Shown: piece after piece, positions 15,821 through 23,479 of the stretch | Layout: each line of letters starts with the position of its first letter | Numbering within the stretch: the stretch's first letter is position 1 | From: Acidobacteriota bacterium | GTDB taxonomy: Bacteria > Acidobacteriota > Terriglobia > Terriglobales > Acidobacteriaceae | Assembly (NCBI GenBank): GCA_021846945.1 | Contig: JAJZVZ010000016.1 | Location: 1-47,056 of the forward strand | Reading direction: 5' to 3' | Length of the DNA: 47,056 nt | Made by a program: the position numbers and the translations under genes | Notes under the pieces: generated by a model | Database searches by the model: none | Told to the model about the DNA's origin: nothing | What the model saw: the letters and a program-made list of their open reading frames with translations, nothing else

Positions 15821-18478
<2,658 letters not shown>

Positions 18479-18589
18479 AGTTCAGTTCACAGTGATCAGT
18501 TGTCAGTGATCAGTCTTTCCATTCAGCCGCCAGCGATCGTGCTTCAGCAATCCTTCTGACAACTGACCACTGATCCCTGACCACCGCCT
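18479..18589 (-). repeat. Heptad intergenic repeat element, copy 4 (atpA-atpG spacer)
   Basis: On the minus strand it starts at the atpA stop as TAAAGGCGG, then GGTCAGGGATCAGTGGTCAG and TTGTCAG. The other arm, CTGATCACTGACAACTGATC, ends against the atpG ATG. TCAGTTGTCAG and CTGACAACTGA are an 11-bp perfect complement. Confidence 0.8.
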
Positions 18590-20841: not shown

Positions 20842-21588
20842 TTAGTTCTGCCCCCCTTTGTTTGTGCCATGATCTCCCACGCCGGCCAGAAATTCGGCAA
20901 TCAGCGCGCGGTCGGTTTCAGGCGTGAGTTTCATCTGCTGCGCCGCCTTGCCAATCGCCAGTTCGGCGGCGAAGTTGCGCAGCCCGCGCCGCGCATGAGC
21001 GGCCGCCGCGTCGATCTCCTGCTCCGCCGAGGCAATGATATGGGAGTGCTCTTCTTCAAGCGCCACTTTCATACGCGCTTCGTCGTGCTTCAGCTCTTCT
21101 TCCATATCCGCGCGGAGCTTCGCGATCTCGTCGTCAAGCTTTGAAAGCTTGGCCTCAACCGCGTTCAGCCTTGACTTTGCGTCCTCGGTCACCTTGCGGG
21201 CCGATTCGATGTCGTGGCGCAAGGTCTCGGAGCGCTTGCGGATCACCTTCGGCAGCAGGCGCGACAGGGGGATGAGGAGCGCCAGCGCGAGAATGACAAA
21301 GTTGATGGCCTCAAAGAGCCGCGCCGTCGTCTCCAGGGGCATATGTAGCGTTTTGGCCAGCGAACTCACAATCGGCGAATGCCGGTAGGCGTCGTCTTCC
21401 TCCGCCTCGGATTTGGACGCCTGAGCCGGGGCCGCGCTCTGGGCCGCGGAATCAGACGCTGTGGCGGCCGGAGCGGCCTGCATTGCCGCGGCATGCGCAG
21501 GCGCACCCGCCACCGCAATCAGTATTGCCAGCAGCAGGAATGGGAGAACCCTGAGAGAGGAAAACAGCAGCGAATTCGATCGTTTCAA
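20842..21588 (-). CDS. atpF: ATP synthase F0 subunit b with N-terminal signal-like extension
   Basis: 248 residues, against ~160 for a usual b subunit. Residues 1-33 resemble a cleavable signal peptide (hydrophobic core then AHA-A), followed by an Ala/Ser/Glu-rich linker (34-70). The true membrane helix is at about 91-110 (LFEAINFVILALALLIPLSR), and then a long charged coiled-coil stalk runs from 115 onward. The overlap with the upstream b' gene is ATGA, indicating coupled translation. It pairs with b' to make a heterodimeric peripheral stalk, as in photosynthetic and some other bacteria. The extension, if cleaved, would leave about 55 periplasmic residues before the membrane helix. Confidence 0.92.
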   Translation of the reverse strand: MKRSNSLLFSSLRVLPFLLLAILIAVAGAPAHAAAMQAAPAATASDSAAQSAAPAQASKSEAEEDDAYRHSPIVSSLAKTLHMPLETTARLFEAINFVILALALLIPLSRLLPKVIRKRSETLRHDIESARKVTEDAKSRLNAVEAKLSKLDDEIAKLRADMEEELKHDEARMKVALEEEHSHIIASAEQEIDAAAAHARRGLRNFAAELAIGKAAQQMKLTPETDRALIAEFLAGVGDHGTNKGGQN

Positions 21589-22043
21589 TGGGAACCCCCG
21601 GCAGCCATCGGCAGCACAGCACGCGCCACCTGATTGGCCAATTCCCCGGCAGAGGCCTGGAGCATCTGTTTGGCGGCGGCCGACTCGGCATCCAACTGAG
21701 CCGAGGCCTGCCTCACTTTCTGGCCGGCTGCCTGGCGCGCCGCCTCAAGGGCTGCTTCACGCTCTGCCTGCCATTGTTTGATGCGCTGTTCGCGCGCCCG
21801 GAAGACCTCGGCCCGCGCCTGCCGCAGCTTTTCAGCATATTCGGCCGCCCTGGCCTCAGCCTTGGCTATAGCCTTCTGGGCGTCGGCAACGGCGCCCTCG
21901 GTCAGGGCGCGGCGCTTTTCCAGGATCGCGGTCAGCGGGCCCTGCACCAGAATCTGGTAAGCCAGAACCACCACGATGAACAGCACGGCGGTCGGCACCG
22001 ACGCCACGAACAGATTGCCGAGTTGTTGGATGGTTTCCTGCAT
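21585..22043 (-). CDS. ATP synthase F0 subunit b' (second b-type subunit)
   Basis: 152 residues. One N-terminal membrane helix (about residues 14-32, VPTAVLFIVVVLAYQIL) is followed by a continuous Ala/Glu/Arg/Gln-rich coiled coil. This is the typical b/b' layout with normal length, in contrast to the extended atpF downstream. It is the first gene of the operon; genes for subunits a and c are not upstream. A predicted promoter lies at 22101-22129, giving a leader of about 50 nt; the ribosome-binding site is weak. Automatic annotators may call this atpF as well. Confidence 0.92.
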   Translation of the reverse strand: MQETIQQLGNLFVASVPTAVLFIVVVLAYQILVQGPLTAILEKRRALTEGAVADAQKAIAKAEARAAEYAEKLRQARAEVFRAREQRIKQWQAEREAALEAARQAAGQKVRQASAQLDAESAAAKQMLQASAGELANQVARAVLPMAAGGSH

Positions 22044-22100: not shown

Positions 22101-22129
22101 TTTGTATCAGGGGCGAACCCCTAAGTCAA
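22101..22129 (-). promoter_or_regulatory. Predicted atp operon promoter with palindromic spacer
   Basis: On the minus strand, TTGACT (22129-22124), a 17-bp spacer and TACAAA (22106-22101) preceded by TG one base away (extended -10, TGATACAAA). The spacer contains the perfect palindrome AGGGG-TTCG-CCCCT (22123-22110). Transcription would start near 22094. Confidence 0.6.
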
Positions 22130-22156: not shown

Positions 22157-22172
22157 TGTGACTGCGATCACG
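22157..22172. promoter_or_regulatory. CRP/FNR-family-like binding site upstream of the atp promoter
   Basis: TGTGACTGCGATCACG matches TGTGA-N6-TCACA except at the last base. Its centre (22164.5) lies about 70 bp upstream of the predicted atp start, close to the -71.5 register used by class I CRP sites. A further half-site, GGTCACA, lies at about 22188-22194. Confidence 0.45.
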
Positions 22173-22220
22173 AACCGGGGAAGCCGCGGTCACAAACGGG
22201 AAATGAGCACAAAAAAAGAC

Positions 22221-22248
22221 TTGATTTCAGACGAAACAAGCCTAAACT
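22221..22248 (+). promoter_or_regulatory. Candidate promoter for a plus-strand intergenic RNA
   Basis: TTGATT (22221-22226), a 16-bp spacer and TAAACT (22243-22248), preceded by an A7 run at about 22212-22218 that could act as an UP-like element. It points away from the atp operon and toward the 22280-22333 hairpin; start predicted near 22255. Confidence 0.35.
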
Positions 22249-22254
22249 AAAGAT

Positions 22255-22345
22255 ACCACCTAGACCCGGTCCAGGGTCCAGCGGGCAGGCGGTTTCGGGA
22301 AATACCCTCCACTCCCGAAGCCGTCTGTCCGCTTCTATATTTAGC
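22255..22345 (+). ncRNA. Candidate structured small RNA
   Basis: The core is a 21-bp uninterrupted stem: 22280-22300 pairs with 22313-22333 across a 12-nt loop. The only non-Watson-Crick positions are 285-328 (G-U), 289-324 (G-U) and 293-320 (U-G), all allowed in plus-strand RNA but A-C mismatches on the minus strand. A small hairpin, GACCC/GGGTC (22263-22267 with 22274-22278), precedes it, and TCTATATTT follows. No long ORF spans it and no known RNA family is recognised. It could also be a terminator of an unseen transcript. The rest of the 22044-22499 gap holds the atp control region and, at about 22413-22433, a GTTGATCC direct repeat. Confidence 0.35.
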
Positions 22346-22499
22346 GGTCTGCCAGATACACCCACCAACCTGCGAACGCGCCATTGTGCCCAGCGGAGCG
22401 AACCTGCTGCCGTTGATCCAATACTGTTGATCCGAAACCTCGATAAGCAGAAAGATTGCTCCGTAAGCACATCAGGGCAGGTGTTGTGTGGACATCACG

Positions 22500-23453
22500 C
22501 TACGGCTGTCCCACCACCGCCGCCTTGTCCACCGTCAGCAGCCCTTTGGCGCGCAGCCAGTTTTCCAGCAGGCTGGGCCACGCGTCCAGCGCCGGATCGC
22601 CCTTGCCGAGGCCCGATCCGTGGGCGCCGTTCGCGAAGACATGGTACTCGGTCTGCACGCCGGCCTTCACCAGCGCCTGGAAGAAGTCGAGACTCTGCTG
22701 CACCGGAACCGTCTGATCGTTGAAGGTGTGATAGATAAAAGTCGGCGGCGTCTCTTTGGTCACGTACAAATCAGGCGAATAGGCCTTGCGCAGTTCCTCG
22801 CAGCGGTCCATCACATGAAACAGCTTGCAATAGGTCAGGTGCGAAGTGTCCGGCGAGATGGCTCCGAGCCAGGGGTAGCCGAGCACCAGATAATCCGGGC
22901 GGCTTGAGACGCGCTCGGCCGGGTCGGCCGCATTCGGGTTGCCGGCCACAAACTGCGTGCCCGCCAGCGCGGCCAGGTGCCCTCCAGCCGAAAATCCGAT
23001 CACCACGATCCGGTCCGGAGCGATGTGGTATTCGCTCGCGTGTGACCGCACCAGCTGAATGGCGCGCCGCGCATCCAGCAGCGGTACCGGCAGCAGGTAG
23101 CCGTGCGAGGACAGCCGGTAGCTCAGGATAAAGGCGCGGAAGCCGCGAGTCGTGAACCAATCGGCAATCTGGCCGCCCTCCAGATCGCCCGCCAGGCCGA
23201 CATAGGCGCCGCCTGGGAAAATCAGGACCGCCGAGCCGTTGGCGCTGCCGTGGCGCGGCCCCACGATCGTCAGTGTGGGAATGTCCCAGCAGGTATCGCC
23301 CTTGGCCTCGGGAGCCTTCCCGGGCCACAGGCGGATGGTTTGAATATTCAGAAAGCCGTTGTCATTACCGGGTGTGGCGCACGGACTCAACTGCCCATAC
23401 GCCGCGGAGCAGGCCAGCAGGCCGGCGGCGAGCATTGCAAAAATGGGTTTCAT
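22500..23453 (-). CDS. Secreted alpha/beta hydrolase (acetyl-esterase/BD-FAE-like)
   Basis: 317 residues from ATG 23453, which has GAGG 7 nt upstream. The in-frame ATG 23471 is disfavoured because a TATAAT at 23480-23485 would put the mRNA start right on it. A signal peptide (MKPIFAMLAAGLLACSAAYG-Q) is followed by an alpha/beta-hydrolase fold: oxyanion segment FPGGAYVG, nucleophile elbow GFSAG (S155), acid D246 (TFNDQTVP) and H278 (NGAHGSGLG). This arrangement matches carbohydrate acetyl-esterases and related exported lipases. It probably acts in the periplasm or outside, for example removing acetyl groups from polysaccharide; the substrate is inferred from family only. Confidence 0.85.
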   Translation of the reverse strand: MKPIFAMLAAGLLACSAAYGQLSPCATPGNDNGFLNIQTIRLWPGKAPEAKGDTCWDIPTLTIVGPRHGSANGSAVLIFPGGAYVGLAGDLEGGQIADWFTTRGFRAFILSYRLSSHGYLLPVPLLDARRAIQLVRSHASEYHIAPDRIVVIGFSAGGHLAALAGTQFVAGNPNAADPAERVSSRPDYLVLGYPWLGAISPDTSHLTYCKLFHVMDRCEELRKAYSPDLYVTKETPPTFIYHTFNDQTVPVQQSLDFFQALVKAGVQTEYHVFANGAHGSGLGKGDPALDAWPSLLENWLRAKGLLTVDKAAVVGQP

Positions 23454-23479
23454 CAGGAACCTCACAGGCATTCGCGAGG

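Follow-up and report, generated by a model that had tools for sequence, protein, structure and literature searches.

In the alpha-r14 sRNAs, the anti-Shine-Dalgarno (anti-SD) motif CCUCCUCCC lies in unpaired regions and the stems vary in sequence while the structure stays, and one of these RNAs, NfeR1 of Sinorhizobium meliloti, silences mRNAs at translation starts (PMC10746234). The 6C / B11 sRNA of actinobacteria is described as silencing G-rich mRNA leaders through C-rich loops (PMC10470900). For Acidobacteria, the Acido-1 RNA (RF01686) is listed as a noncoding RNA candidate (PMC2864571), and a 2022 review tabulates only 4 annotated sRNAs for the Acidobacteriota (PMC9029176).

The window studied here, that is the whole stretch of 47,056 nucleotides of Acidobacteriota DNA that was analysed, holds at 22221-22345 a sequence that an earlier note, made from the letters, had put forward as an undescribed plus-strand RNA. 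Among 12 loci searched, none has an Rfam match that reaches the family's cut-off, and at E values up to 10 the matches of four stretches are all far below cut-off. A literature search, most subscription journals being outside its scope, found no paper on this RNA, so that within the literature searched the word undescribed stands, and the RNA is a new family of a known kind.

The predicted RNA gene and its parts

The stretch is flanked on one side by atp genes (b', b, delta, alpha) and on the other by an alpha/beta hydrolase gene, all of them on the minus strand. The features of the locus, in order of position, are:

21585..22043, minus strand: ATP synthase b' gene, the first downstream atp gene (Pfam ATP-synt_B)
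22101..22106, minus strand: -10 element TACAAA of the atp promoter (extended TGATACAAA), conserved in an alignment of 62 genus loci
22124..22129, minus strand: -35 element TTGACT of the atp promoter, conserved in the same 62-locus alignment
22157..22172, no strand assigned: CRP/FNR-like palindrome TGTGACTGCGATCACG, between the two divergent promoters
22221..22226, plus strand: -35 element TTGATT of the sRNA promoter (CTTG-TTT in the genus, TTGAC- in many other genera)
22243..22248, plus strand: -10 element TAAACT of the sRNA promoter (genus form TANACT), after a 16-nt spacer
22255..22343, plus strand: predicted small RNA of about 89 nt, from conserved segments and covariation, with start and end inferred
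22255..22262, plus strand: open 5' segment ACCACCUA (in other genera often AUCACCUCC)
22263..22278, plus strand: hairpin 1, GACCC-GGUCCA-GGGUC, its 5-bp stem identical in 72/72 genus sequences and covarying in other genera
22280..22333, plus strand: hairpin 2, 21 bp with three G-U wobbles, terminator-like, from folding and covariation
22301-22312, plus strand: C-rich loop of hairpin 2, 12 nt
22334..22343, plus strand: T-rich tail TCTATATTTA (genus form TCTTA-TTT)
22500..23471, minus strand: alpha/beta hydrolase (BD-FAE) gene (Pfam), in whose place most other genera examined have hflX

Conservation extends, in this order, over promoter, 5' end, hairpin 1, hairpin 2 and tail, which form one predicted plus-strand unit. 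The genus consensus reads, in its 5' half, CTTG-TTT, 16 nt, TANACT and TAYCACCTAGACCC-GGTYCA-GGGTCCAGCGGGC, and in its 3' half a stem, a loop with TTCCACTCC, a stem ending in GCCCGC and TCTTA-TTT. The fold that the earlier note had drawn was recovered in each of its parts: a small upstream hairpin at 22263-22278, an uninterrupted stem of 21 bp in which 22280-22300 pairs with 22313-22333 on the plus strand, irregular only in three wobbles (22285-22328 G-U, 22289-22324 G-U and 22293-22320 U-G), and a T-rich tail at 22334-22343 that keeps its form in the genus. The promoter-like TTGATT-16-TAAACT, of sigma-70 type, likewise lies where it had been placed; it was missed by a consensus promoter scanner, since its hexamers match at 4/6 positions each, below the scanner's limit, and is conserved across the genus all the same.

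A scoreable promoter pair, the best-scoring one being chosen, was present in 173/177 loci, with L111 and L313, in which the hairpin-1 pattern is absent, excluded from the promoter, openness and 5'-form counts. The spacer is 16 nt in 143 of the 173 scored loci, and the distance from the -10 element to the 5' segment is identical in 137 and differs by one base in 27 more. We infer transcription of the RNA and its exact ends: the predicted +1 is the A at 22255, 7 nt past the -10 element, where conservation resumes in the genus alignment.

The earlier note had also held that no ORF covers the stretch, which proved incorrect, as a mechanically called ORF of 100 aa (22168-22470, minus strand) spans it. 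A Pfam search of this ORF gave no match, and the three minus frames run across the RNA without a stop in just 19, 41 and 8 of 72 relatives. On the plus strand, two frames are open in 61/72 and 57/72, with an ATG inside the predicted RNA in only 8/72. A protein-coding reading was rejected on these open plus frames mostly without ATG, on lengths that vary from 92 to 95, and on the lack of a Pfam match. A repeat element was rejected as well: the RNA stretch is single copy in its own genome, with one full match, and the other six matches there are chance matches of 14-19 bases. In one genome of the genus (L080, G063:C408:20695-20716), a second match of 22 bases to the 5' arm of hairpin 2 (E 0.008) is probably due to chance. 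Elsewhere in the window, inverted repeats lie around the atp genes at 17284-17402 and 18490-18572; they are formed by short words that recur (CTGAAGG, and CAGTGATCAGTTGTCAG with its complement).

Covariation and the coding strand of the RNA

On the plus strand the stretch folds at -52.5 kcal/mol (z -6.5), with 0/200 shuffles as good, and on the minus strand at -44.7 (z -1.8), with 7/200 as good. Folding energy alone gives no separation of the strands in the genus, plus being the more stable in 39/72; the genus consensus fold favours the plus strand (-34.2 vs -22.5 for minus).

Uncompensated substitutions on the two arms in relatives, which the earlier note would have taken as a refutation, were looked for, and the outcome was the opposite: the helices show compensatory changes. 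A1, an alignment made by sequence alone of 72 of the 73 genus loci (L072, with N and a local duplication, was dropped), has 78 double-changed cells against 27.2 when shuffled and at most 20 when partners are slid; 90.2% of its cells are paired against at most 51.4% with slid partners, and 13/26 pairs have changed on both sides (shuffled mean 9.3). For the wider alignments (A3 and A4) plus-strand models served as the guide, so that their counts, and a tree test made on A3, lean towards structure; read in that light, the family-wide alignment (75 sequences) has 22/26 pairs double-changed and 345 such cells (122.5 shuffled, at most 59 slid), the window plus 50 loci, mostly of other genera, has 20/26 pairs and 120 cells (27.4 shuffled, at most 46 slid), and parsimony on a tree of ATP synthase proteins (70 tips) places 150 double changes from one Watson-Crick pair to another in 22/26 pairs, together with 69 events that yield G-U, 30 that yield A-C and 80 that yield some other mismatch.

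The strand-specific wobble pattern, taken earlier as the trace of selection on an RNA helix, holds up, though less strongly inside the genus than outside. G-T and A-C cells stand at 120:69 in the genus, 118:54 family-wide and 132:18 in the window plus 50 loci, the values expected of independent arms with an unchanged column make-up being 146:92, 176:132 and 175:61. Set against these expectations, the observed ratios indicate a stronger avoidance of A-C than of G-U, a difference that is clear in the two wider alignments, and it is mostly these, along with the tree-inferred changes, that bear the wobble argument out; within the genus, column make-up alone gives nearly as large a G-U excess, and 30 of the A-C cells are located in the basal pair. 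Covariation, the keeping of G-U over A-C and the conserved plus-strand parts together support the reading as a plus-strand RNA, and we regard the presence of a structured RNA gene on this strand, as such, as nearly certain from the comparison of sequences.

Distribution and gene neighbourhood

A DNA match is present in 73/80 genomes of the genus, the window's own included, and in all 42 of those with at least 90% completeness and at most 5% contamination. The other genus loci have 73-90% DNA identity to the stretch, the adjoining b' protein being 55-72% identical at the same loci, and conservation of the stretch within the genus is beyond chance. A covariance model built from A1 (R1) detected the RNA in 107/300 genomes of the family, 21 from the genus itself and 86 outside it; these 86 are independent, apart from false hits, and three (L112, L116 and L117, of 60 fetched other-genus loci) were judged false by eye and dropped. 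With a second model (R2), searched in order genomes of at least 85% completeness, a match, usually in one copy, was obtained in 301/346 genomes and 60/72 genera, a count that is not independent because R2 was trained on part of the family. Three of the 301 positive genomes belong to a second family and the rest to the window's family; 45/346 had no match in this search.

In a sample of the phylum, 49/396 genomes had a match, 45 in the same family and four, weak ones, elsewhere. The weak matches in other families are those of G462, G487, G752 and G757 (E 1e-6 to 2e-5). An exact-pattern scan of named genomes returned 74 stretches, 72 under Acidobacteria names, including Terracidiphilus gabretensis, Occallatibacter savannae, Acidicapsa dinghuensis, Silvibacterium bohemicum and Edaphobacter aggregans. 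Two scan stretches, L236 and L237, lack the second hairpin on inspection and are likely chance matches. Acidobacteriota are common soil bacteria, and an RNA that occurs in most genera of the order sample and is easily found by a covariance model can be tested in cultured strains.

The RNA lies upstream of the b' start in all 73 genus loci. Neighbours were surveyed at 179 loci (72 of the genus, 107 of other genera), with families assigned by Pfam on one example each. The b' gene was inside the fetched flank at 72/72 genus and 94/107 other-genus loci, hflX at 78/104 other-genus loci with at least 1.4 kb downstream, and hfq at 59/73 with at least 2.4 kb downstream; the genus loci, with short flanks of about 1.5 kb, had hflX in 2/72 and hfq in 0/72, and in four genus genomes tested hfq is either 10 kb or more distant or placed on a different contig. 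Other genera usually have hfq-hflX first, next the RNA, which faces these two genes, and last atp, which points away. Many loci of the window's genus have the hydrolase gene where other genera mostly have hfq and hflX.

At 13/107 other-genus loci the flank holds no atp b' and the RNA is kept all the same: five of them have hflX (L113, L151, L278, L285, L314), and eight have none of b', hflX and hfq (L118, L119, L136, L269, L276, L305, L315, L316), several of these flanks being short. A clear TTGAC promoter is retained at L113, L136, L151, L278, L285 and L314, and a weaker one at L118 and L119. Since RNA and promoter persist without atp b' or without hflX, the RNA follows neither neighbour strictly, and its persistence without atp or hflX-hfq beside it points to a free-standing sRNA gene. 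Comparison between relatives shows the structure, strand, promoter, distribution and independence from neighbours of this predicted RNA.

The same loci bear on the reading in which there is no independent RNA, and the hairpin either terminates transcription in both directions, serving the convergent gene (hflX or hydrolase), or belongs to the atp leader. The hairpin often ends less than 100 nt from the hflX 3' end, and its stem folds on the minus strand too; but promoter, 5' segment and hairpin 1 are also conserved, the RNA persists without hflX or without atp, and A-C is avoided more than G-U, and we hold this reading to be very improbable. A plain terminator was rejected on the conserved promoter and 5' parts and the persistence without neighbours, and an atp leader because the conserved atp promoter sits beyond the RNA gene, between it and b'.

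That atp promoter, beside which the earlier note had placed the RNA, has the genus consensus TTGAC-17-TGATACAA on the minus strand. Its pattern occurs in 65/72 genus and 63/90 other loci, against 0.96 and 1.54 expected, and a GTGA-N6-TCAC palindrome occurs in 66/72 genus loci, against 0.14 expected, and in 3/90 other loci, the shuffles behind these expectations keeping base composition only. The palindrome centre is 69.5-71.5 nt upstream of the RNA +1 in 59/66 genus loci and 36-37 nt from the atp -35 element in 54/60 scored; in the window its distance to the RNA +1 is 90.5, two helical turns more. A near-fixed spacing between palindrome and promoter is the geometry of CRP-family activators, which makes joint control of both promoters plausible in the genus, and whether a CRP/FNR-family regulator controls the RNA together with atp there could, on this sequence evidence, go either way.

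A cis-acting regulator of atp, working through the divergent promoter or by pairing with atp mRNA, would also fit an RNA that adjoins atp in 72/72 genus and 94/107 other loci and shares a palindrome with it in the genus. Pairing of the 5' segment with b' starts (139 loci) gave no such signal, with a mean of -3.3 against -3.36 when shuffled and a better value, -4.06, for the reversed segment, and the RNA is kept at loci without atp in the flank; we consider cis action improbable, and a free-standing gene the better account.

Putative mode of action and likeness to known RNAs

The 5' segment is predicted to be open (mean unpaired probability 0.94 over 177 loci). In other genera it reads AUCACCUCC at 43/105 readable loci, AUCACCU without CC at 17 and ACCACCU at 16, and 29/105 fall outside these three commonest forms; in the genus it is ACCACCU (ACCACCUA) in 60/72 and AUCACCU in 7/72, with the exact AUCACCUCC in 0/72. 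CACCU is found inside the segment in 68/72 genus and 77/105 readable other loci. AUCACCUCC is the anti-SD sequence at the 16S rRNA end, a likeness that is only partial in the window's genus. Furthermore, the loop of hairpin 2 is C-rich (UCACCGCU, CUUCCACUCC), and Hfq is present in 15/15 genomes tested.

Because in many of the relatives its exposed 5' end resembles the mRNA-binding tail of the ribosome, the RNA may switch off the translation of other messages. We hypothesise that its own promoter would drive, away from the atp operon, an RNA of about 89 nt whose open 5' end is followed by a small hairpin, which is conserved, and then by a long one of terminator type, C-rich in its loop. The 5' end, perhaps aided by the loop, could pair with G-rich Shine-Dalgarno regions of certain mRNAs, and this antisense pairing would block ribosome binding, as in anti-SD-type sRNAs elsewhere; in this genus a CRP/FNR-family regulator would probably control the RNA jointly with atp. 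Silencing of mRNAs by anti-SD-like pairing is the mechanism we favour, by analogy, and we give it an even chance of being right. Towards the statement as a whole, that of a free-standing Acidobacteriaceae sRNA gene with its own promoter, anti-SD antisense pairing and CRP/FNR control in the genus, we lean slightly. If the rRNA-tail likeness is functional, the RNA would offer a simple example from nature of competition with the ribosome for its landing site.

A search for perfect GGAGGTGATA upstream of ATG returned 17 matches in 16 genomes, of which 8 are the RNA locus itself; among the others, inspection by eye revealed no shared gene. At L329 (G106:C10 near 2021350 and 2021612), two tandem similar ORFs of 46 aa, each behind a perfect GGAGGTGATA Shine-Dalgarno sequence, look like precursor peptides. 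Pairing of the 5' segment with hfq starts (55 loci) was no better than chance (-4.44 vs -4.18 shuffled; reversed segment better, -5.47), and 5' segment and loop taken as twin seeds shared a mean length of 3.89 against 4.06 shuffled (1993/2000 shuffles at least as high).

The lack of a target in the perfect-complement search and in the b' and hfq pairing tests would suit a housekeeping-type structured RNA of other function, binding for example RNA polymerase or a protein complex, in which the open C-rich segments are not seeds. Its wide presence, the single copy in nearly every genome with a match and a helix 1 identical in 72/72 genus sequences would suit it too. However, SRP RNA (12/13 genomes) and a 6S candidate (in the window's own genome, slightly below cut-off) are encoded elsewhere and no Rfam family matches, and we see only a small chance for such a role. 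SRP RNA (RF00169) and 6S RNA (RF00013) are, like this RNA, small, structured and one copy per genome, and differ in lying at other places of the same genome; both identities were rejected, the window genome's SRP match being on C119 (70.6 bits) and its 6S match on C301 (44.3 bits, below the cut-off of 46.4).

The likeness to the 16S rRNA end could instead serve protein binding: the RNA would imitate the 3' tail of 16S rRNA and bind a protein in place of mRNAs, examples being Era, ribosomal protein S1 or a factor of ribosome maturation. Era binds the 16S rRNA 3' tail; AUCACCUCC stands at the predicted 5' end in the 43 other-genus loci, 16S rRNA ends in the same letters (pattern GGCTGGATCACCTCCTTT in 5/15 genomes), and hflX, of a ribosome-binding GTPase family, is the neighbour at 78/104 other-genus loci. 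At the same time, ACCACCUA in 60/72 loci of the window's genus breaks the likeness and the tail pattern is absent from 10/15 genomes, single-contig ones among them, which leaves tail mimicry unlikely. A broader proposal, also rather unlikely, is that the RNA may start with a copy of the 16S 3' tail in many genera and act on the whole translation machinery, as a Shine-Dalgarno competitor of 30S subunits or a binder of rRNA-tail factors, its gene being grouped with hfq, hflX and the ATP synthase operon, and a shared CRP-type site linking it to energy status in one genus.

Returning to mRNA silencing by anti-SD-like pairing, the described RNAs offer several points of comparison. Acido-1, like this RNA a noncoding RNA candidate of Acidobacteria, belongs to another locus and was rejected as an identity: it has no match at the locus and none in the window's genome, it exceeds its cut-off in 1/23 genomes, at another place (G110:C1:235785, the predicted RNA being at 5145994), and four weak matches are likewise away from the RNA locus. 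With the alpha-r14 sRNAs this RNA shares an unpaired anti-SD-like motif and stems that vary in sequence while the structure is kept. In contrast to them it comes from another phylum, has two hairpins and not three each with CCUCCUCCC, and carries its motif at the 5' end, as AUCACCUCC or ACCACCUA, with a different motif in the loop; with two hairpins and another motif, it was not counted as a member. It resembles 6C / B11 in the C-rich loop, and differs in having one such loop plus an open C-rich 5' end, and no run of six C. By analogy with NfeR1 and B11, then, an open 5' segment, a C-rich loop and Hfq would equip this RNA for base pairing over translation starts.
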